64,000 nucleotides of DNA, taken from contig OX336350.1 in NCBI GenBank assembly GCA_946902875.1, positions 19,148,048 through 19,212,047 on the forward strand, written 5' to 3'. The stretch is from Nematopogon swammerdamellus (lineage: Eukaryota; Arthropoda; Insecta; Lepidoptera; Adelidae). Within the stretch, counting starts at the first letter, position 1; the number at the start of each line of letters is the position of its first letter. Shown here piece by piece: positions 2,362 to 54,635 of this stretch. Below the pieces are notes generated by a model. That model was not told the DNA's origin. It did no database searches and saw only the letters and a program-made list of their open reading frames with translations. Made by a program: the position numbers and the translations under genes.

Positions 2362-2520
2362 GTATGCGTGTTCGGAAGCCTCGCTAACGTCCTGAACGTA
2401 GCCGTGCTGACGCGGCGCGACATGGCCACCGCTCCCATCAACCGACTGCTCAAGTGGCTCGCGGTCGCCGACGTCTTCGTCATGCTGGAGTACGTGCCCT
2501 TCGCCGCCTACAAGTACTTC
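2362..2520 (+). CDS. Peptide GPCR, exon coding end of TM1, ICL1 and TM2
   Basis: Internal exon of 159 nt, phase 0 on both sides, between acceptor CTTGCTCCAG and donor GTACGTAC. It encodes 53 residues: end of TM1 with the class A asparagine (GSLANVLNVAVL), a basic ICL1 (TRRDM) and TM2 with the conserved aspartate (WLAVADVFVMLEYVPF). The LxxADxxVMLEYxPF pattern is typical of the myosuppressin/FMRFamide (DMSR) and sex-peptide-receptor-like peptide GPCRs of insects. The receptor should sit in the plasma membrane and couple to G proteins; its ligand cannot be told from the sequence. The N-terminal exon(s) lie upstream of the window. The 3' half of this exon with its donor is tandemly duplicated just downstream. 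Confidence 0.9.
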
Positions 2521-2733
2521 GTACGTACACGCCGCTCTGTACAATATACAACACTGTGCCACTATTCAATACGCACGGTCACCGCTCCCATCGACCGACT
2601 GCTCAAGCGGCTCGCGGTCGCCGACGTCTTCGTCATGCTGGAGTACGTGCCCTTCGCCGCCTACAAGTACTTCGTACGTACACGCCGCTCTGTACAATAT
2701 ACAACACTGTGCCACTATTCAATACGCACGGTC
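2428..2733 (+). repeat. 153-bp tandem duplication of exon end plus donor
   Basis: Copy 1 is 2428-2580 and copy 2 is 2581-2733, followed by a few bases of a third start. Each copy holds 93 nt of exon (TM2) and 60 nt of intron, with the donor at 2521 or 2674. Within the exon part I see two differences, both changing amino acids in copy 2 (AAC to GAC, TGG to CGG). The unit is 51 codons, and the frame stays open from exon 1 through both copies, stopping near 2754. Copy 2 has no acceptor of its own, so it can be used only by skipping the first donor. Confidence 0.9.
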
Positions 2734-2882: not shown

Positions 2883-3019
2883 ATCTGGCCTGGCGCGAGG
2901 GACTTCCAGTACTCTTGGGCGGTGTACCTGCTGTTCCACATGCACTACACTCAAATCCTGCACACGTCATCTATATGCCTCACGCTCTCTCTCGCCGTCT
3001 GGAGATATCTAGCCATTAA
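2883..3019 (+). CDS. Peptide GPCR, exon coding ECL1 and TM3
   Basis: Exon of 137 nt from acceptor CTCTCTGACAG to donor GTAAGT (3020). It enters in phase 0 and leaves with two bases (AA) of a lysine codon. It encodes IWPGARDFQYSWAVYLLFHM, TM3 (HYTQILHTSSICLTLSLAV) and WRYLAIK. The class A D/ERY triplet is replaced by WRY, as in the DMSR/myosuppressin receptor group. There is no cysteine at the outer end of TM3, where most class A receptors have one for the ECL2 disulfide. The neighbouring introns are full of SINE fragments. Confidence 0.9.
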
Positions 3020-3124
3020 GTAAGTGGTACGACTTTCTATTTTATTTATTTATTGTATGCGTGTTCGTTTGTTCCCTTCACATATCCTAAACTACTAAAC
3101 CGAGGTCAACATATTTTTTAAATG

Positions 3125-3520
3125 TAATCCGGTATGGGTGGCTGAGTCGGAGGGCCAAAGCGCATGCTCCGACCAGCCAATATCACCGCCCAGAGCTAGG
3201 TGCCATACCGGAGACTTCCCTGGATTGCTGGCTATACTAACTAGAGGAGAACACAACCGAGGCTGCTATGCGGCCATCTTACATCCAATACGGCGGTACC
3301 AACCCAGTCGGCTACAATTTGAGCCTACCACCTAGTGAGGGGCAAGGGAAGGGACCTACAGTTTTACACCGGTTCCGAACGGTGAAGCAGCAGGTGTAGG
3401 TATGCACGTAATTTTTTTCGTCAAGAAAAACTCATTGGTTTGGTACACACCGACCGGATTCGAACCTCGGACCTCTCGCATGAGAAGCCGATGTCCAAAC
3501 CACTCAGCCACCCGCCGCTA
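3125..3520 (-). mobile_element. tRNA-derived SINE
   Basis: Read on the minus strand, it starts with a tRNA-like head: GTGGCTGAGTGG as A box, GGTTCGAATCC as B box, and a TCTCATGCGAGAGG arm between. It ends with the ATACCGGATTA tail at the left. The body (AACCCAGTCGGCTACAATTT and GGAGAACACAACCGAGGCTG segments) recurs at 24327-24475 plus 25970-26218, at 26458-26520 and at 37050-37284. Pol III promoter boxes are recognisable, but no intact tRNA is claimed. Confidence 0.75.
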
Positions 3521-5420: not shown

Positions 5421-5773
5421 ATAAAGAATATAGAATATCACTAGTGTCATGGGAACTCCTCGTATAGAAGCACTGGAAAGAACACTGAATCTGTGTTTAC
5501 GTGAAAATTTCCTTAAATGTTTTTCCAACACTATTGTAAAGCACCTATTCATAAGATTATACTAAAGGTGACGTAATTTTTAGGGGAGGGGGGCTTCAAT
5601 AGACCATGACGAAATGTGATAAAGGGTGACGAGGAGGGGGGGGGGGGGGGGGGTTAAAATGGTGAAAGGGGCCATAGGGGTTGGCGCCTTACCATAATAA
5701 TTCTGGATTGCTTCGATACCACGTACATATTTTTTTTATTCGACTTACTTATCATGTGCAATATTTTTGGCAG
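5421..5773 (+). other. Intron 2 end with an 18-G run
   Basis: Non-coding. It holds a run of 18 G at 5636-5653 and ends in the acceptor TATTTTTGGCAG (AG at 5772-5773) before the TM4 exon. Confidence 0.6.
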
Positions 5774-5876
5774 ATACTCAGACAAAAGTCACATCCTGTG
5801 CACCGAGCGGCGCTGCAGCCTCGCGATAGTCAGCAGCTTCCTACTCCCGCCGGTGCTCTGCATCCCCACCTTCATG
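5774..5876 (+). CDS. Peptide GPCR, exon coding TM4
   Basis: Exon of 103 nt from acceptor TTTTTGGCAG to donor GTACGTAT (5877). Its first base completes the lysine codon left open by the previous exon (AA|A), and it ends in phase 0 with ATG. It encodes YSDKSHILCTERRC, then TM4 (SLAIVSSFLLPPVLCIPTFM), with no TM4 tryptophan. Joined to exon 35784 it gives CIPTFM|VFDIHTTVVYEN, a natural TM4/ECL2 junction, so the exon assignment is strong even though the next exon is 29.9 kb away. The last 21 nt of the exon plus the first 14 nt of the intron are the unit of the large minisatellite that follows. Confidence 0.88.
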
Positions 5877-6613
5877 GTACGTATACCGCGCTCTGCATCC
5901 CCACCTTCATGGTACTTATGCAGCGCTCTGCATCCCCACCTTCATGGTACTTATGCATCGCTCTGCATCCCCACCTTCATGGTACGTATGCAGCGCTCGG
6001 CATCCCCACCTTCATGGTACTTGTGCATCGCTCTGCATCCCCACCTTCATGGTACGTATGAAGCGCTCTGCATCCCCACCTTCATGGTACTTATGCATCG
6101 CTCTGCATCCCCACCTTCATTATCCGTGTGCAGCGCTCTGCATCTCCACCTTCATGGTACTTATGCATCGCTCTGCATCCCCACCTTCATGGTACGTATG
6201 CAGCGCTCTGCATCCCCACCTTCATGGTACTTATGCATCGCTCTGCATCCCCACCTTAATGGTACGTATGCAGCGCTCTGCATCCCACCTTCATGGTATG
6301 TATGCAGCGCTCTGAATCCCCACCTTCATGGTATGTATGCAGCGCTCTGAATCCCCACCTTCATGGTATATATGCAGCGCTCTGAATCCCCACCTTCATG
6401 GTATGTGTGCAGCGCTCTGCATCCCCACCTTCATGGTATGTATGCAGCGCTCTGAATCCCCACCTTCATGGTATGTATGCAGCGCTCTGAATCCCCACCT
6501 TCATGGTATATATGCAGCGCTCTGAATCCCCACCTTCATCGTATGTGTGCAGCGCTTTGCATCCCCACCTTCATGGTATGTATGCAGCGCTCTGAATCCC
6601 CACCTTCATGATA

Positions 6614-6910
6614 CAGTCCGCGCGCGAGCTCCAAGGAATCGGGGGCTGGGGAAGCGGGCGGGTGTGCGCCCCTCCCGACCGTCGCTTCACACCCCGCGCG
6701 CTCCCGGTGCGAGTGTTGGCCTTGACGCGAGAGCACGCTTATCGATGCCGTATTCGTAATACCTATGCGCGCGTATTAGTCAATCGCGTGTTAATTCGTT
6801 ACTCTTTTTATTTTTATTAAGCGACTTCATTTTGTGTGTACAAATAGCGATTCAATATGGATGAAGAAGAAATTGCCAGCACGAGCAATAACTTCCTCGC
6901 GCGCGGTCTG
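6614..6910. mobile_element. TA-flanked MITE, copy 1
   Basis: 297 bp bounded by 15-bp terminal inverted repeats CAGTCCGCGCGCGAG / CTCGCGCGCGGTCTG (one mismatch). TA lies on both sides (6612-6613, 6911-6912); removing the element with one TA restores a normal unit apart from one base. TA target sites and a CAGT end fit the Tc1/mariner group, but no transposase domain confirms this. Near the right end, 6857 starts ATGGATGAAGAAGAAATTG (MDEEEIASTSNNFLARGL), which runs through the TIR into the minisatellite. It may be the remnant of a transposase start. Confidence 0.8.
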
Positions 6911-7681
6911 TATGTATGCAGCGCTCTGAATCCCCACCTTCATGGTATGTGTGTAGCGCTCTGCATCCCCACCTTCATGGTATGTATGCAGCGCTCTGCA
7001 TCCCCACCTTCATGGTACTTATGCATCGCTCTGCATCCCCACCTTCATGGTACGTATGCAGCGCTCGGCATCCCCACCTTCATGGTACTTGTGCATCGCT
7101 CTGCATCCCCACCTTCATGGTACGTATGAAGCGCTCTGCATCCCCACCTTCATGGTACTTATGCATCGCTCTGCATCCCCACCTTCATTATCCGTGTGCA
7201 GCGCTCTGCATCTCCACCTTCATGGTACTTATGCATCGCTCTGCATCCCCACCTTCATGGTACGTATGCAGCGCTCTGCATCCCCACCTTCATGGTACTT
7301 ATGCATCGCTCTGCATCCCCACCTTAATGGTACGTATGCAGCGCTCTGCATCCCACCTTCATGGTATGTATGCAGCGCTCTGAATCCCCACCTTCATGGT
7401 ATGTATGCAGCGCTCTGAATCCCCACCTTCATGGTATATATGCAGCGCTCTGAATCCCCACCTTCATGGTATGTGTGCAGCGCTCTGCATCCCCACCTTC
7501 ATGGTATGTATGCAGCGCTCTGAATCCCCACCTTCATGGTATGTATGCAGCGCTCTGAATCCCCACCTTCATGGTATATATGCAGCGCTCTGAATCCCCA
7601 CCTTCATCGTATGTGTGCAGCGCTTTGCATCCCCACCTTCATGGTATGTATGCAGCGCTCTGAATCCCCACCTTCATGATA

Positions 7682-7978
7682 CAGTCCGCGCGCGAGCTCC
7701 AAGGAATCGGGGGCTGGGGAAGCGGGCGGGTGTGCGCCCCTCCCGACCGTCGCTTCACACCCCGCGCGCTCCCGGTGCGAGTGTTGGCCTTGACGCGAGA
7801 GCACGCTTATCGATGCCGTATTCGTAATACCTATGCGCGCGTATTAGTCAATCGCGTGTTAATTCGTTACTCTTTTTATTTTTATTAAGCGACTTCATTT
7901 TGTGTGTACAAATAGCGATTCAATATGGATGAAGAAGAAATTGCCAGCACGAGCAATAACTTCCTCGCGCGCGGTCTG
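7682..7978. mobile_element. TA-flanked MITE, copy 2
   Basis: Same element as 6614-6910 at an offset of 1,068 bp, in the same position relative to the flanking units. It arose by block duplication, not by a new insertion. Confidence 0.8.
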
Positions 7979-9096
7979 TATGTATGCAGCGCTCTGAATC
8001 CCCACCTTCATGGTATGTGTGTAGCGCTCTGCATCCCCACCTTCATGGTATGTATGCAGCGCTCTGAATCCCCACCTTCATGGTACTTATGCAGCGCTCT
8101 GAATCAACACCTTCATGGTACTTATGCATCGCTCTGCACCTTCACCTTCATGGTATGTATGCAGCGCTCTGAATCCCCACCTTCACGGTATATGCAGCGC
8201 TCTGAATCCCCACCTTCATGGTATGTGTGTAGCGCTCTGCATCCCCACTTTCATGGTATATATGCAGCGCTCTGAATCCCCACCTCCATGGTATGTGTGG
8301 AGCGCTCTGCATCCCCACCTTCATGGTATGTATGCAGCGCTCTGCATACCCACATTCATGGTATGTATGCAGCATTCTGAATCCCCACCTTCATGGTATA
8401 TATGCAGCGCTCTGAATCCCCACCTCCATGGTATGTATGCAGCGCTCTGAATCCCAACTTTCATGGTATGTATGCAGTACTCTGAATCCCAACCTTCATG
8501 GTATATATGCAGCGCTCTGCATCCCCACCTTCATGGTATGTATGCAGCGCTCTGAATGCCAACCTTCATGGTATGTATGCAGCACTCTGAAACCCACCTT
8601 CATGGTATATATGCAGCGCTCTGAATCCCCACCTTCATGGTATGTGTGCATCGCTCTGCATCCCCACCTTCATGGTATGTATGCAGCGCTCTGAATCCCC
8701 ACCTTCATGGTACTTATGCAGCGCTATGAATCAACACCTTCATGGTACTTATGCATCGCTCTGCACCCCACCTTCATGGTATGTATGCAGCGCTCTGAAT
8801 CCCCACCTTCATGGTATGTATGCAGCGCTCTGAATCCCCACCTTCATGGTATATATGCAGCGCTCTGAATCCCCACCTTCATGGTATGTGTGCAGCGCTC
8901 TGCATCCCCACCTTCATGGTATGTATGCAGCGCTCTGAATCCCCACCTTCATGGTATGTATGCAGCGCTCTGAATCCCCACCTTCATGGTATATATGCAG
9001 CGCTCTGAATCCCCACCTTCATCGTATGTGTGCAGCGCTTTGCATCCCCACCTTCATGGTATGTATGCAGCGCTCTGAATCCCCACCTTCATGATA

Positions 9097-9393
9097 CAGT
9101 CCGCGCGCGAGCTCCAAGGAATCGGGGGCTGGGGAAGCGGGCGGGTGTGCGCCCCTCCCGACCGTCGCTTCACACCCCGCGCGCTCCCGGTGCGAGTGTT
9201 GGCCTTGACGCGAGAGCACGCTTATCGATGCCGTATTCGTAATACCTATGCGCGCGTATTAGTCAATCGCGTGTTAATTCGTTACTCTTTTGATTTTTAT
9301 TAAGCGACTTCATTTTGTGTGTACAAATAGCGATTCAATATGGATGAAGAAGAAATTGCCAGCACGAGCAATAACTTCCTCGCGCGCGGTCTG
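9097..9393. mobile_element. TA-flanked MITE, copy 3
   Basis: Offset of 1,415 bp from copy 2. One difference is visible (TTTTGATTTTT at about 9290 in place of TTTTTATTTTT). Confidence 0.8.
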
Positions 9394-9885
9394 TATGTAT
9401 GCAGCGCTCTGAATCCCCACCTTCATCGTATGTGTGCAGCGCTTTGCATCCCCACCTTCATGGTATGTATGCAGCGCTCTGAATCCCCACCTTCATGGTA
9501 TATATGCAGCGCTCTGAATCCCCACCTCCATGGTATGTGTGCAGCGCTCTGAATCCCAACCTTCATGGTATGTATGCAGTACTCTGAATCCCAACCTTCA
9601 TGGTATGTATGCAGCGCTCTGCATCCCCACCTTCATGGTATGTATGCAGCGCTCTGAATGCCAACCTTCATGGTATGTATGCAGCACTCTGAATCCCCAC
9701 CTTCATGGTATGTATGCAGCGCTCTGAATCCCAACCTTCATGGTATGTATGCAGCGCTCTGAATCCCAACCTTCATGGTATATATGCAGCGCTCTGAATC
9801 CCCACCTTCATCGTATGTGTGCAGCGCTTTGCATCCCCACCTTCATGGTATGTATGCAGCGCTCTGAATCCCCACCTTCATGATA

Positions 9886-10182
9886 CAGTCCGCGCGCGAG
9901 CTCCAAGGAATCGGGGGCTGGGGAAGCGGGCGGGTGTGCGCCCCTCCCGACCGTCGCTTCACACCCCGCGCGCTCCCGGTGCGAGTGTTGGCCTTGACGC
10001 GAGAGCACGCTTATCGATGCCGTATTCGTAATACCTATGCGCGCGTATTAGTCAATCGCGTGTTAATTCGTTACTCTTTTTATTTTTATTAAGCGACTTC
10101 ATTTTGTGTGTACAAATAGCGATTCAATATGGATGAAGAAGAAATTGCCAGCACGAGCAATAACTTCCTCGCGCGCGGTCTG
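9886..10182. mobile_element. TA-flanked MITE, copy 4
   Basis: Offset of 789 bp from copy 3, within the 789-bp higher-order pair. The flanking minisatellite units to the right of copies 3 and 4 carry the same variants in the same order. Confidence 0.8.
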
Positions 10183-10734
10183 TATGTATGCAGCGCTCTG
10201 AATCCCCACCTTCATCGTATGTGTGCAGCGCTTTGCATCCCCACCTTCATGGTATGTATGCAGCGCTCTGAATCCCCACCTTCATGGTATATATGCAGCG
10301 CTCTGAATCCCCACCTCCATGGTATGTGTGCAGCGCTCTGAATCCCAACCTTCATGGTATGTATGCAGTACTCTGAATCCCAACCTTCATGGTATGTATG
10401 CAGCGCTCTGCATCCCCACCTTCATGGTATGTATGCAGCGCTCTGAATGCCAACCTTCATGGTATGTATGCAGCACTCTGAATCCCCACCTTCATGGTAT
10501 GTATGCAGCGCTCTGAATCCCAACCTTCATGGTATGTATGCAGCGCTCTGAATCCCAACCTTCATGGTATGTATGCAGCGCTCTGAATCCCAACCTTCAT
10601 GGTATGTATGCAGCGCTCTGAATCCCAACTTTCATGGTATGTATGCAGCGCTTTGTATCCCCACCTTCATGGTATGTATGCAGCGCTCTGCATCCCCACC
10701 TTCGTGGTATTTGTGCAGCGCCACTACAGTATCT

Positions 10735-11526: not shown

Positions 11527-11907
11527 TTAAAATCTAAAATTAATACAAAAACAAATGGAGTTTCCACCACCGGCGGCGGGGCGAGCCCAAGCTACCGATG
11601 GTCGGGTCCCAAAGAGAGGAACCTCCGGACGATGCGTGCAGTGTCGAGCAGGGCTGCCTTCTGGATCTGGCCCTTGACCCAACCACTCAGCGATCGTCGA
11701 GTCGACGGGCCACATTTTGGTAACCTCATGCTGCAGATCCAGATATTTTAACATCTTCTCTGCTTCCTTACTGACGAGGTTACCATCGTGCGGCACGGCG
11801 ATATCGACGAGCGTTGCGCGCCTTGCCTCCCGGTCTACTATCACAATATCAGGCCTGTTCGCGAGAATAGTCCTGTCTGTGATAATGGACCGGTCCCAGT
11901 AGAGTGT
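11527..11907 (-). pseudogene. Non-LTR retrotransposon, C-terminal fragment
   Basis: Minus-strand reading gives YWDRSIITDRTILANRPDIV, then IVDREARRATLVDIAVPHDG, then VSKEAEKMLKYLDLQHEV. This is a conserved C-terminal segment of lepidopteran LINE ORF2 proteins, downstream of the RT. It is 5' truncated, and the usual continuation after the VDSTI residues is replaced by a degenerate, proline-rich tail ending near 11527. Confidence 0.7.
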
Positions 11908-12740
11908 GATTATTATTATTAATTATTATATATTCAACTCTCACACTCAAGTCTTCTGCTACTACATACTTACATTTCACTATATTTATCATCAAATCCA
12001 AAGGTCGGTGGAAGAAATCTCTCTAATCTAAGGGATCAGCCCGCCTTTACACTTTAGTCCATAGACGTATAAAGAAAGGTATGATAATTTCGATTTAGAT
12101 TTTACAAGGTATGAATAGTTGATTTAAAAGCTCTTGTGAAGAAACAATTCTTTAAAAAAAGTAAATCTAATTCGTTGAACTTGATAAATAACAAAATTTG
12201 CTTGACAAAATAAGGTCATTCGAAAGCACATTATAATTAAATTATATAAACGGAATATTTTCATGTGAAAATTAACATGTATCGCGTAGTAACACTGTTA
12301 CGTAAGCATCACTTTCCCCCCCCACACCCCGCAAAACTGACCGCACCTTATTTAGAGTATTTTGACGGTTTCGCTCTCTCTATCCCCCCGTATATTATTT
12401 TTTATATATGCTTTAGTGTAATGTGCTTATTTTTGTAAACACTTCTTGAGCAATCAAGTATTTGATATCTATCTTTCTTTCCTTTCTTCTCGAGCACGTA
12501 TCTTTCACATCTTTTTACAAATTCACATGCCCGTACTGTCCTTTTAAATGTTTTGTTGCGAATTTCAAACCAAAAAAATAATTTATTACAGACACGTCGA
12601 AAAGATCGGTATAATCTACCTTTATGGCAGGTAACGGCTGTTATGAGATTTCAACATTATTTTTTAGCCCGATTTAAAATTTGTGCTGAATTACAAATGT
12701 TCCAAATTCAAATATTCGCATAATGTTGCCAACGCCGCAA
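11908..12740. other. AT-rich intron with one LINE-tail remnant
   Basis: Mostly anonymous AT-rich DNA. Positions 11990-12065 (AGAAATCTCTCTAATCTAAG, then GCCCGCCTTTACAC) resemble the untranslated tail of lepidopteran LINEs that lies at 15000-15240 on the other strand. No coding region seen. Confidence 0.45.
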
Positions 12741-22679: not shown

Positions 22680-23012
22680 GGGAGGGAGAGGCTAGGGAGA
22701 TGGAGGGAGAGGGAGAGGGAGAGGGAGAGGGAGAGGGAGAGGGAGAGGGAGAGGGAGAGGGAGAGGGAGAGGGAGAGGGAGAGGGAGAGGGAGAGGGAGA
22801 GGGAGAGGGAGAGGGAGAGGGAGAGGGAGAGGGAGAGGGAGAGGGAGAGGGAGAGGGAGAGGGAGAGGGAGAGGGAGAGGGAGAGGGAGAGGGAGAGGGA
22901 GAGGGAGAGGGAGAGGGAGAGGGAGAGGGAGAGGGAGAGGGAGAGGGAGAGGGAGAGGGAGAGGGAGAGGGAGAGGGAGAGGGAGAGGGAGAGGGAGAGG
23001 GAGAGGGAGAAA
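22680..23012 (+). repeat. (GGGAGA)n hexanucleotide array
   Basis: About 52 near-perfect GGGAGA hexamers. The open frame through it (EGEGEG...) is a repeat artefact. It ends abruptly at AACGGAAACGG. A second array of the same hexamer lies at 48018-48436. Confidence 0.95.
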
Positions 23013-23127: not shown

Positions 23128-24321
23128 GTGACGGTGGCCTCGCCCTTAGTTACTTACTTTCTTCGTGGAGGTTTATTGTATTCCAGAATGCAGCTTAGCC
23201 TGAAGCCTCGCCGTTAGTTACTTACTTTATTTAAGAAGTTATATCGTTTATCTAAATGCCATTACTTTCATCGAGAAATCGAGAAGGTTTATCGTCTTCC
23301 AGAATACAGCTCGGCCTTCGGCCTCGCCCATAGTTACTTACTTTCATCAAGAAGGTTAATCCTCTTCCTTAACGCAGCTCGGCCTTCGGCCTGACCCATG
23401 GTTTATCCTCTTCCTAAACGGAGCTCGGCCTTCGGCCTCGCCCTCAGTTACTTACTTTCTTCGAGAAGTGTTATAGTCTTCCTAAACGCAGCTCGGCCTT
23501 CAGCCTCGCTCTTTGTTACTTACTTTCATCGAAAAAGTTTATCCTCTTCCTGAACGCAGCTCGGCCTTCGGCCTCGCCCTTAATTACTTTCTTTCTTAGA
23601 GATGGTTTATCGTCTTCCTGAACACAGCTCGGCCTTCGGCCTCGCCCTCAGTTACTTACTTTCTTCGAGAAGGTTTATGGTCTTCCTGAACGCAGCTCGG
23701 CCTTGGGCCTCGCCCTCAGTTACTTACTTTCTTCGAGAAGGTTTATCCTCTTCCTGAACGCAGCTCGGCCTTCGGCTTCGCCCATAGTTACTTACTGTCT
23801 TCGAGAATGTTTATCGTCTTCCTGAACGCAGCTCAGCCTTCGGCTTCGCCGTTTGTTACTTGCTTTCTTCGAGAAGGTTTATAGTCTTCCTGAATGTAGC
23901 TCGGCCTTCGGCCTCGCCCTTAATGACTTACTTTCTTATAAGGTTTATCGTCTTCCTGAACGCAGCTCGGCCTTCGGCCTCGCCCTTTGTTACTTACTTT
24001 CTTCAAGAAGGTTTATAGTCTTATTGAACGAAGCTCGGCCTTCGGCCTCGCTCTTTGTTACTTACTTTCTTCGGGAAGGTTTATAGTTTTCCTGAACGCA
24101 GCTCGGCCTTCGGCCTCGCCCTTAATTACTTACTTTCTTAGATAAGGTTTATCATCTTCCTGAACGGAGCTCGGCCTTCGGCCTCGCCCTTAGTTACTTA
24201 CTTTCTTCGAGAAGGTTTATAGTCTTCCTGAACGCAGCTCGGCCTTCGGCCTCGCCCTCAGTTACTTACTGTCTTCTTTGAAATACGAATTTCACGCGAG
24301 CGGAGCCGCGGGCTCAGCTAG
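23128..24321 (+). mobile_element. Helitron tail: tandem array plus 3' terminus
   Basis: About 15 diverged copies of the 70-bp unit of 231-2125, then GAAATACGAATTTCACGCG, AGCGGAGCCGCGGGC and CAGCTAG (CTAG 24318-24321) with T following. No helicase remnant upstream: the array starts next to an 18-G run (23097-23114). Confidence 0.8.
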
Positions 24322-35783: not shown

Positions 35784-36404
35784 GTGTTCGACATCCACAC
35801 GACTGTGGTGTACGAGAACAGCATCCCGGCTCTCCTCTACCACGTGGACTCCGACTACGAGGGACAGCTCTACCAGCTCAACTTCTGGGTACACGCGGTC
35901 GCGGTCAAGCTCCTACCCTGCGCCATACTCACCGTCATCAGCATATGGCTCATCAGAGCTCTCTACAGCGCCAACAGACGCCAGAAGAACCTCAGGGCGT
36001 ACAGCGCGTGCCCAGCCGGCGACAAGAAGCCGCAGATCAAATCCGAAGTAGCCATCAGGAGACAGCACAAGGCCGACAAACGTACAGACAGAACTACAAA
36101 AATGCTCCTGGCCGTTCTGCTGCTCTTCTTAGTCACCGAGTTGCCGCAAGGAATCCTCGGACTTCTCAGCGGTGTCCTAGGAAGGTGTTTCTTCAAGTGC
36201 TGCTACGATCTGTTCGGAGAGTTAATGGATATCCTGGCGCTGTTGAACGGCGCGATCAACTTTGTGCTATACTGTTCGATGTCGAGGCAATTTCGACTGA
36301 CGTTCGGTATGATGCTGCGGCCCCGAATGGGGAAGTGGTCGCAGCCGCTGGCGCCGCTGCAGCCGCTGGCCTCGCACTCGGATGTCCAGAACACGTACGT
36401 ATGA
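35784..36404 (+). CDS. Peptide GPCR, last visible exon (ECL2, TM5-TM7, C-tail)
   Basis: Starts at acceptor ATTATGCGTGCAG in phase 0 and encodes 206 residues to TGA. ECL2 (VFDIHTTVVYENSIPALLYH) has no cysteine. TM5 (FWVHAVAVKLLPCAILTVIS), a basic ICL3 (RRQHKADKRTDRTTKM) and TM6 (LLAVLLLFLVTELPQGILGL) follow; the class A CWxP is replaced by ELPQG. TM7 reads LMDILALLNGAINFVLYCSM, with NFxxY-like NFVLY for NPxxY, then SRQFRLTF and a short tail ending NTYV, a possible class I PDZ ligand. These replacements are what DMSR/FMRFamide-type receptors show. A consensus donor GTACGT lies at 36395-36400, just before the stop, so a further coding exon is possible. Ligand and exact orthology are not established. 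Confidence 0.92.
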   Translation: MFDIHTTVVYENSIPALLYHVDSDYEGQLYQLNFWVHAVAVKLLPCAILTVISIWLIRALYSANRRQKNLRAYSACPAGDKKPQIKSEVAIRRQHKADKRTDRTTKMLLAVLLLFLVTELPQGILGLLSGVLGRCFFKCCYDLFGELMDILALLNGAINFVLYCSMSRQFRLTFGMMLRPRMGKWSQPLAPLQPLASHSDVQNTYV

Positions 36405-36526
36405 TGTCCGGCAAGCGAGCCGCTGTTCGTCGGGCTGTCGCTTCTGTGAGCGGGGTAAACTGTCACATCGCTTTGTGCATGCCGTAGGAATCAGTGTACG
36501 ACGCATCGCTTTACGCTTTTTATGTT
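36405..36526 (+). other. Possible 3' UTR start of the receptor
   Basis: 122 bp between the stop and the next SINE, with no AATAAA. If the donor at 36395 is used this is intron. Confidence 0.4.
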
Positions 36527-48017: not shown

Positions 48018-48436
48018 AAGGGGGAGGGAGAGGGGAGGGGGAAGGGGAGGGGGAGGGGAGGGGGAGGGGAGGGAGAGGACGAGGGACAGGGAGAGGGAGA
48101 GGGAGAGGGGGAGGGGGAGGGAGAGGGGGAGGGAGAGGGAGAGGGAGAGGGAGAGGGAGAGGGAGAGGGAGAGGGAGAGGGAGAGGGAGAGGGAGAGGGA
48201 GAGGGAGAGGGAGAGGGAGAGGGAGAGGGAGAGGGAGAGGGAGAGGGAGAGGGAGAGGGAGAGGGAGAGGGAGAGGGAGAGGGAGAGGGAGAGGGAGAGG
48301 GAGAGGGAGAGGGAGAGGGAGAGGGAGAGGGAGAGGGAGAGGGAGAGGGAGAGGGAGAGGGAGAGGGAGAGGGAGAGGGAGAGGGAGAGGGAGAGGGAGA
48401 GGGAGAGGGAGAGGGAGAGGGACAGGGAGAGGGAGA
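48018..48436 (+). repeat. (GGGAGA)n hexanucleotide array
   Basis: Begins with irregular GGGGAGGG variants (48018-48130), then becomes nearly perfect GGGAGA up to 48436. Open frames on both strands (GRGRGR, PLPLPL, SPSPSP) are repeat artefacts. Confidence 0.95.
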
Positions 48437-48705: not shown

Positions 48706-49708
48706 ATAGCTTTTTCCCGCGGATTCGCTCGCGTGAAATTCGTATTTCAAAAGAAGAAAGTAAGTAAATTAGGCCGGGGCCGGAGGGTGAACTGGATTTA
48801 GATGAACAATAAACATTCTCAAAGAAAGTAAGTAACATACTAAAGGCGAGGCCGAAGGCCGGCTGCGTTCAGGAAGAATATAAACCTTTTTAATGAAAGT
48901 AAGTAACAGAGGGCGAGGCCGAAGGCCGAGCTGCGTTCAGGAAGACCATAAACCTTCTCGAAGAAAGTAAGTAACTGAGGGTGAGGCCTAAGGTCGAGCT
49001 GCGTTCAGAAAGTCTATAATCCTTCTCGAAGAAAGTAAGTAACTAAGGGCGTGGCCGAAGGCCGAGCTGTATCCTGGAAGACGCTAAACCTTCTCGATGA
49101 CAGTAAGTAACTATGGGCGATAGTTACTTACTTTCTTCAAGACGGTTTATAGTCTTCCTGAACGCAGCTCGGCCTTCGGCCTCGCCCTTAGTTACTTACT
49201 TTCTTCGAGAAGTTTTATGGTCTTCCTGAACGCAGCTCGGCCTTCGGCCTCGCCCTCTGTTACATACTTTCATTAAAAAGGTTTATATTCTTCCTGAACG
49301 CAGCTCGGCCTTTGGCCTCGCCCTCAATGACTTCATTTCTTCGAGAAGGTTTTCCTGAACGCAGCTCGGCCTTCGGCCTCGCCCTTAGTTACTTACTTTC
49401 TTCGAAAAGGTTATCGTCTTCCTGAACGCAGCTCGGCCTTCGGCCTCGCCCTCAGTTACTTACTTTCTTCAAGAAGGTTTATAGTCTTCCTGAACGCAGC
49501 TCGGCCTTCGGCCTCGCCCTTAGTTACTTACTTTCTTCGAGAAGGTTTATTGTCTTCCAGAATGCAGCTCAGCCTGAAGCTTCGCCGTTAGTTACTTACT
49601 TTAGTTGAGAAGGTTTATCGTTTACCTGATCCCAGCTCGCCCTTAGTTACTTACTTTCTTCCTTTGAAATACGAATTTCACGCGAGCGAAGCCGCGGGCA
49701 AAAGCTAG
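48706..49708. mobile_element. Head-to-head inverted Helitron tails
   Basis: The left end is an inverted 3' terminus (CCGCGGATTCGCTCGCGTG) followed by minus-strand 70-bp units (GAGGCCGAAGGCCGAGCTGC) to about 49120. The orientation flips at AGTAACTATGGGCGATAGTT, and + strand units run to the normal 3' terminus with CTAG at 49705-49708. The two ends thus face outward around a short palindromic centre. Confidence 0.85.
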
Positions 49709-53319: not shown

Positions 53320-53928
53320 ATATCCCGGCAATCCGGGTAAGCTGAATGATCGGCGTTGTGCTGCAAGTACTCTTGTAAATTACAGCGCAACACCGCCCAT
53401 CACGTTTCGTAAAATATTCGGTGAAGATATTCTATCAAGCGGCAAGGTACTGGCTAAGGTAAGGCACGAAGACCCACCTGCTGCATGAATCGGTGATAGG
53501 ACCGTGCCAAAGTGAGAGGTGGCTATCCTGTCGCCATTTAACATAGCATCATGCCCTTTTCCCTTAGTCTCCCTTTAAGACATGCACGAGATGATACAGT
53601 GGGGCAAATTTTTTTATGTACCAGCCCCATCATACGGTCTGGGGCCACTGCCCCACACGGTATGATACGGTATGACTACAAAAGCCTTAGTAAAATACGC
53701 CATTCAGGTATCAGGATAAACCCATACCCAGTACCGTGTGAGGCCGGTACTTAAAAAGAATAGCCCCACTGCATCTCTCCCCGTGCGTGTCTTAAAAGGC
53801 GACTAAGGGATAAGGATAAGATGTCGTGCTGAAGGGCGACAGGATAGCCACCTCTCACTTTGGATCCATCCTTCCACCGAGTCATGCAGCGGGTGTGTCT
53901 TCGTACCTTACTTGCTGCTTGATTGCTT
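53320..53928. repeat. Inverted and nested copies of the 44936 repeat family
   Basis: 53330-53630 runs in one orientation (AAGTACTCTTGTAAATTACA, CCGTGCCAAAGTGAGAGGTG) and 53735-53928 in the other (CCCCGTGCGTGTCTTAAAAG, CCACCTCTCACTTTGGA). Confidence 0.6.
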
Positions 53929-54635
53929 GATAAACCCATAGTGCTTCCCATTTCATTTCCCAACAAACCAAAGTGCTAGCAGGTGTAGAATTTCCCACTG
54001 CACGATTTTGTCCGAATACTTGGCTAAACGTGGTGGTCGGCGTTGTGCTGTTATTTGCAAGAGTACCTGCAGCACAAATCCAATTACTCTGCTTACCCCG
54101 ATTGTCGGGATACAACGTGTGTTATGTATGTATGTATGATAAACCCATAATGCTTCCCATTTCATTTCCCAACAAACCAAAGTGCTAGCAGGTGTAGAAT
54201 TTCCCACTGCACGATTTTGTCCGAATACTTGGCTAAACGTGGTGCTCGGCGTTGTGCTGTTATTTGCAAGAGTACCTGCAGCACAAATCCAATTACTCTG
54301 CTTACCCGATTGTCGGGATACAACGTGTGTTATGTATGTATGTATGATAAACCCATAGTGCTTCCCATTTCATTTCCCAACAAACCAAAGTGCTAGCAGG
54401 TGTAGAATTTCCCACTGCACGATTTTGTCCGAATACTTGGCTAAACGTGGTGCTCGGCGTTGTGCTGTTATTTGCAAGAGTACCTGCAGCACAAATCCAA
54501 TTACTCTGCTTACCCGATTGTCGGGATACAACGTGTGTTATGTATGTATGTATGATAAACCCATAGTGCTTCCCATTTCATTTCCCAACAAACCAAAGTG
54601 CTAGCAGGTGTAGAATTTCCCACTGCACGATTTTC
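53929..54635 (+). repeat. 208-bp tandem array, 3.4 copies
   Basis: GATAAACCCATAGTGCTTCC starts units at 53929, 54138, 54346 and 54554 (periods 209, 208, 208). Units are nearly identical (one visible change each, for example GTGGTCGGCG to GTGCTCGGCG) and end in (TATG)n. The unit includes GTACCTGCAGCACAAATCC, a piece of the neighbouring repeat family. Confidence 0.92.

Follow-up and report, generated by a model that had tools for sequence, protein, structure and literature searches.

A 35-bp minisatellite that begins at a splice donor in a putative neuropeptide receptor gene of the moth Nematopogon swammerdamellus

The DNA analysed here (the window) is a 64,000-nucleotide stretch of the moth Nematopogon swammerdamellus (Adelidae; assembly GCA_946902875.1, contig OX336350.1, positions 19,148,048 to 19,212,047, forward strand). 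It carries four coding exons of a G-protein-coupled receptor (GPCR) gene, and the exon for transmembrane segment 4 (TM4) runs into a long 35-bp tandem array that includes its splice donor. The coding exons and the array are as follows.

2362..2520, plus strand: receptor coding exon for TM1-TM2, with donor GTACGTAC at 2521, located by tblastn and splice signals
2883..3019, plus strand: receptor coding exon for TM3, with donor GTAAGT at 3020
5774..5876, plus strand: receptor TM4 exon, with acceptor GCAG at 5770-5773 and donor 1, GTACGTAT, at 5877
5855..10721, plus strand: 35-bp minisatellite, 105 full units and a stub, with 43 distinct unit sequences
35784..36405, plus strand: last receptor coding exon, from the second extracellular loop (ECL2) to TM7 and the tail, including the stop codon, with acceptor GTGCAG

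The TM1-TM2 exon matches four related insect receptors at 75-83% in tblastn, and the TM4 exon codes for YSDKSHILCTERRCSLAIVSSFLLPPVLCIPTFM following a split codon and ends in GCTCTGCATCCCCACCTTCATG. Joined together, the four exons encode 339 residues, a product lacking the N-terminal part of the receptor, which lies beyond the window edge, and this product matches the Pfam families Srw (PF10324, E 5.8e-29) and 7tm_1 (PF00001, E 2.1e-19). A protein search with it returned 996 proteins; among the matches listed (the best 120 of 996) the top rows are about 75% identical, and frequent names are dmsr-1-like, neuropeptide receptor A and sex peptide receptor-like. By name, the best 79 of the 996 comprise 73 lepidopteran proteins, one caddisfly protein and five without a name. 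In a midpoint-rooted tree of the window protein and 79 of the 120 listed matches (82 were picked and three of at most 350 residues dropped), the window protein adjoins two lepidopteran clades taken together (20 and 26 rows). The union of these two clades has support of 99/92 and the group formed by them and the window protein 99/95, with an end branch of 0.27 for the latter protein. This position would fit either an early-branching moth lineage or a third paralogue.

The gene has the appearance of an intact lepidopteran receptor gene of the dmsr-1-like (Srw) type. Only two of the 127 alignment columns that are invariant in 22 relatives are altered in the window protein, compared with zero to four in each relative by the same measure, and a pseudogene was rejected on this basis. 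In addition, the junction of TM4 and ECL2, which reads CIPTFM|VFD and variants thereof, is free of insertions in all 22 aligned relatives. Because of the few changed columns and the uninterrupted junction of the relatives, the gene is probably still functional. The seven residues LCIPTFM at the end of the TM4 exon are exact in eight of the 22 relatives and altered, in the same place, in the other 14.

The array at this exon end had been predicted, from the letters alone, to be a 35-bp minisatellite of about 100 units whose first unit is the true exon end with its donor, and both parts of this description were borne out. A wrap-around parse, with four inserted elements excluded, yielded 105 full units, and the scores from Tandem Repeats Finder (3131-3472) leave chance no serious role as an alternative. 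Unit 1 starts with the final 22 nt of the TM4 exon, followed by the donor at 5877, and the exon boundary and the array register match base by base. The exact 22 exon bases recur in 24 of the 105 units, unit 1 included. Among units 2-105, the exon-derived letters diverge further from the real exon with increasing distance (Spearman 0.52, in units that are not independent owing to block copies). Since unit 1 opens with 22 nt of coding sequence and the place of LCIPTFM is kept in the relatives, an origin of the array from the exon end and its donor is supported, as had been proposed. The reverse origin, an exon derived from the array, was rejected in view of the protein end standing in the same place in all 22 relatives. 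A further candidate, the unit-internal GTATGTATGCAG as a 12-nt intron, was rejected as too short for splicing on general grounds. One array pattern and one element pattern, searched against viral contigs, each gave zero matches.

The units are not uniform. Units 1-12 are of one type (CTGCAT, with C in the donor), which is recopied as units 25-34, and most of the remaining units are of another type (CTGAAT or CTGCAT, with T in the donor). At the donor position, GT is present in 99 of the 105 units, GTAYGT in 69 and ATG|GTAYGT in 63, while TATGCAG occurs in 71; the original prediction, which gave each later unit both a donor-like and a TATGCAG motif, was thus too strong. The units are spaced by 35 bp (2 mod 3), apart from unit 13 with 34 bp, where the phase shifts. 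As predicted, the exon frame is open from 5774 to a stop (TGA at 6348-6350). However, the unit type of units 1-12 is free of stops in all three phases, and the open frame was therefore rejected as a sign of coding.

Beyond the original prediction, the array contains four copies of a 297-bp element resembling a miniature inverted-repeat transposable element (MITE), as well as a long perfect block repeat.

6614..6910, strand unassigned: first copy of the MITE-like element (297 bp), inserted where a unit has its donor
7682..7978, strand unassigned: MITE-like element copy 2, identical to copy 1
9097..9393, strand unassigned: MITE-like element copy 3, with one substitution
9886..10182, strand unassigned: MITE-like element copy 4, identical to copy 1
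5917..6998, plus strand: block of 1,082 bp with the element inside, repeated perfectly at 6985-8066 (offset 1068)

The element has inverted ends, CAG(T/A)CCGCGCGCGAG, with 14 of 15 positions paired, in a sequence that largely alternates C and G and is hence partly self-complementary regardless, and TA stands at both sides. Inverted ends with a TA duplication are what a TA-inserting MITE has, and we take them to be those of TA-inserting DNA transposons (Tc1/mariner-like). All four copies sit in a like setting, ACCTTCATGATA[...]TATGTATGCAG, and the flanking unit differs by one base (ATGATA versus ATGGTA). Neighbouring units are common to copies 1 and 2 and to copies 3 and 4, and the right-hand neighbours are of two kinds. 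No further copy of the element was found in the window outside these four. The simplest reading of this arrangement would be a single insertion into the donor of one unit, followed by co-amplification. Near one end, the element also holds a short open frame that starts with MDEEEIASTSNNFLARGL and may represent the beginning of a gene or transposase.

Other perfect repeats within the array measure 525 bp (offsets 2483 and 1415), 489 bp (offset 789) and 447 bp (offsets 3272 and 2204). Together with the 1,082-bp repeat, they support recent growth by block duplication. Such recent growth makes it likely that the array length varies between individuals, as judged from the one haplotype at hand. A mis-join during assembly would likewise yield a perfect 1,082-bp internal repeat and common neighbouring units around element copies 1-2 and 3-4, so that the true array could be shorter or differently organised. 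However, the differences among units outside the blocks are ordered, two kinds of right-hand neighbour flank the element (one at copies 1-2, the other at copies 3-4), copy 3 carries its own substitution and the window is free of N, and an inflated or scrambled array is accordingly a very unlikely account.

A second duplication across a donor, also absent from the original prediction, lies at the end of the TM1-TM2 exon and was detected by both Tandem Repeats Finder and BLAST.

2427..2579, plus strand: 153-bp tandem duplication, copy 1, comprising exon end, donor and intron start
2580..2732, plus strand: 153-bp tandem duplication, copy 2 (downstream), with two mismatches to copy 1

The two changes in copy 2, 2440A>G and 2455T>C in copy-1 coordinates, convert N27 to D and W32 to R, at one invariant and one nearly invariant residue, respectively. 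The duplication is in frame and open, and use of the copy 2 donor at 2674 would add 51 residues. Introns 1 and 3 of the gene, whose donors both became duplicated, start alike, with 16 of 19 nt identical (2521-2539 versus 5877-5895), a likeness noticed after the fact. Besides the duplicate at 2674, the best other match to this 19-nt intron start in the 64 kb, on both strands and outside the array, has 14 identities.

For the splicing consequences, the donor of each unit was joined computationally to the acceptor at 35784. A stop-free receptor results from donors 1, 4, 7 and 10 only. The expectation that every third donor splices in frame thus holds for these four and fails beyond them, owing to the 34-bp unit 13 and then the TGA. 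Donors of phase 2 (2, 5, 8, 11 and 13) lead to a stop after about 88 residues of the last exon, those of phase 1 (3, 6, 9, 12 and 14) give a shifted frame that runs through the last exon without meeting a stop, and from donor 15 onward the TGA at 6348 terminates the protein upstream of the junction. Computed U1 pairing is -7.5 for donors 1, 4, 6, 10 and 12, -4.1 for GTACTT donors and -7.9 for GTATGT donors, compared with -2.9 and -6.7 for the donors of exons 1 and 2 of the gene.

These donors could in principle form a working device, in which donors 4, 7 and 10 give isoforms lengthened by 35, 70 and 105 residues between TM4 and ECL2, with LCIPTFM at the end of every insert. The frame is open and complete for donors 1, 4, 7 and 10, donors 4 and 10 share the 9-mer of donor 1, and all phase-2 units among the first 12 (2, 5, 8 and 11) are without a strong donor. 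In addition, two downstream repeat units function as donors in human IFI6 and three mRNAs are produced, according to the available text of PMC4526556. However, just three such isoforms would be possible, donor 7 is weak, donors 6 and 12 are strong and out of frame, and the phase pattern could arise by chance at about 0.07 (a hand count, with four of four phase-2 donors not strong and five strong donors among 12). No protein resembling the insert appeared at E<=10, either with residues 134-238 of the 444-residue read-through isoform (6057 candidates) or with residues 36-191 of the exon-plus-array frame (1387 candidates), and no aligned relative has an insertion here. Across the 43 distinct units, the mean minor fraction is 0.12 at donor positions +1 to +6 and 0.066 in the exon copy, and 86% of random six-column sets are as low as the donor columns or lower. 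Conservation is thus no higher in the donor columns than in the other columns, an argument against selection to keep many donors working, and a device of this kind appears improbable.

If donor 1 is used, the exon length yields the same junction as in the relatives (no insertion in 22 of 22), and on this basis donor 1 probably remains the main splice site. Several observations weigh against this view and against an array of little consequence. Donor 4, the next in frame, has the 9-mer of donor 1 and its U1 energy (-7.5), and, whereas donors 2 and 3 are weaker (-4.1), the later GTATGT donors are slightly stronger (-7.9). Because equal or stronger donors lie downstream, no feature of the site itself sets donor 1 apart. 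Sites scoring at least 7/9 with G at +5 also reach a density of 13.0 per kb in the array, roughly eightfold that of the remaining window (1.7 per kb, in a fixed-register count), although scores above 7 are confined to 23 sites outside the array. Furthermore, the two protein searches covered annotated or predicted proteins within a length range rather than transcripts of this species, and no row flagged as the window's own protein appears among the 120 listed (the best 120 of 996).

The same density of sites, with ATG|GTAYGT in 63 units, would also suit a length-dependent brake, in which competing donors, U1 binding and missplicing cut the amount of correct mRNA and allele length sets the receptor level. 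A comparable situation exists in the human ABCA7 intron-18 variable number tandem repeat (VNTR), which consists of 25-bp units, begins with the exon 18 splice donor and has alleles of about 12 to 427 units, as described in the available text of De Roeck et al. 2018 (PMC5954066). According to the same text, VNTR length and expression are negatively related, and the donor of the second unit causes a 25-bp retention and a frameshift. However, retention of one unit is independent of length there, decay is unaffected by length, and the authors, in that text, do not ascribe the lower expression to use of the second donor (PMC5954066). Greater length instead raised exon-19 skipping (PMC5954066), whereas in the moth gene no coding exon follows the next one. 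A stop upstream of the junction would arise only from donor 15 onward. The phase-2 stop falls some 88 residues within the last coding exon, a position at which classical junction-dependent decay would not be anticipated; this counts further against the brake, which is an unlikely explanation.

Taken together, these features probably reflect a recent tandem expansion of an exon-intron boundary that is neutral or mildly costly. The repeats and the element are observed in the sequence, and the order of steps and the mechanism are reconstructed from them. A segment made up of the 22 nt that end the TM4 exon and the 13 nt that open the intron would have been duplicated in tandem, and the array may then have been enlarged through unequal exchange or slippage. 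A short TA-inserting transposon would have landed once, in the donor of one unit, and the array including the transposon may subsequently have been re-amplified in blocks. With donor 1 presumably retained as the main site, some mRNAs probably leak to downstream donors, of which 2 and 3 would shift the frame and donor 4 would add 35 residues after TM4; we read this leakage as mostly frameshifting. Apart from perhaps slightly impairing correct splicing, the array most likely has no function. The 153-bp duplication, as a second tandem duplication spanning a donor in the same gene, also supports this expansion.

Elsewhere in the window, 68-bp repeat arrays occur at 216-2116, 23286-24276 and 48753-49644, the last of which is in both orientations. 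Hexanucleotide arrays of GAGGGA (22703-23010, 308 bp, 100% matches) and AGGGAG (48019-48436) each lie within about 320 bp of a 68-bp array, and a 208-bp unit is repeated 3.4 times at 53928-54634 with 99% matches. A minus-strand open frame at 11527-11922 presumably resembles part of a non-long-terminal-repeat (non-LTR) retrotransposon protein, and a Pfam scan of this frame returned no match.

The moth array is a splice-donor minisatellite of the ABCA7 and IFI6 kind, as judged from its sequence, here in an insect GPCR gene. Its first unit holds the real donor of the exon (5877, whose use is deduced from the conserved protein junction), and the later units keep donor-like sites (GT in 99 and GTAYGT in 69 of 105). 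The original prediction knew of no described case, a statement contradicted by these two human loci. In ABCA7, expanded alleles are associated with Alzheimer's disease, and longer alleles show lower expression and more exon-19 skipping, with unit retention and decay unchanged (PMC5954066, available text). As in ABCA7, the array starts at the donor of an exon, its first GT is the canonical donor and the unit is not a multiple of 3; in ABCA7 the donor of the next unit is usable and adds one unit. Unlike the ABCA7 unit, which the source excerpts describe as starting with GT, without exon bases, the moth unit holds 22 coding bases. Moreover, the moth array co-amplified a transposon-like element and precedes the last coding exon, whereas those excerpts mention no transposon and the next ABCA7 exon can be skipped. 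For IFI6 (6-16, G1P3), the title of Turri, Cuin & Porter 1995, as cited in PMC2572611, PMC3618361, PMC2915984 and PMC4526556, states that its minisatellite 'provides multiple splice donor sites'. Repeat units acting as splice donors are the feature shared with the moth array, whose 35-bp unit makes most shifts out of frame. The IFI6 unit is reportedly 12 bp long, and its isoforms are thus in frame. In the available text on potato RdRp (PMC4974935) and Drosophila (PMC2891723), introns were gained or changed through tandem duplication of a segment bearing a splice site. There, as in the moth, splice signals were copied along with a segment that spans or adjoins an exon-intron boundary; unlike those single duplications, which made a new intron, the moth duplication reached 105 copies. 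Both described cases of splice-donor minisatellites found in searches of an open-licence library are human, and no insect case appeared among the papers listed there, as judged largely from the listings themselves.

It is conceivable, at low probability, that a length-variable donor array tunes a neuropeptide receptor within a moth population, in a gene that repeatedly duplicates across its donors, perhaps owing to the nearly shared 19-nt start of its introns 1 and 3. If so, alleles with different donor numbers would yield differing amounts of correct receptor, and donor 4 would give a 35-residue insert rebuilding the end of TM4. Under the favoured expansion of the exon-intron boundary, the locus indicates that an exon boundary can be converted into a minisatellite without apparent loss of the gene. 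It combines 105 units that include coding bases with a transposon-like element marking block growth. Such a natural array would allow donor choice among near-identical sites to be tested.

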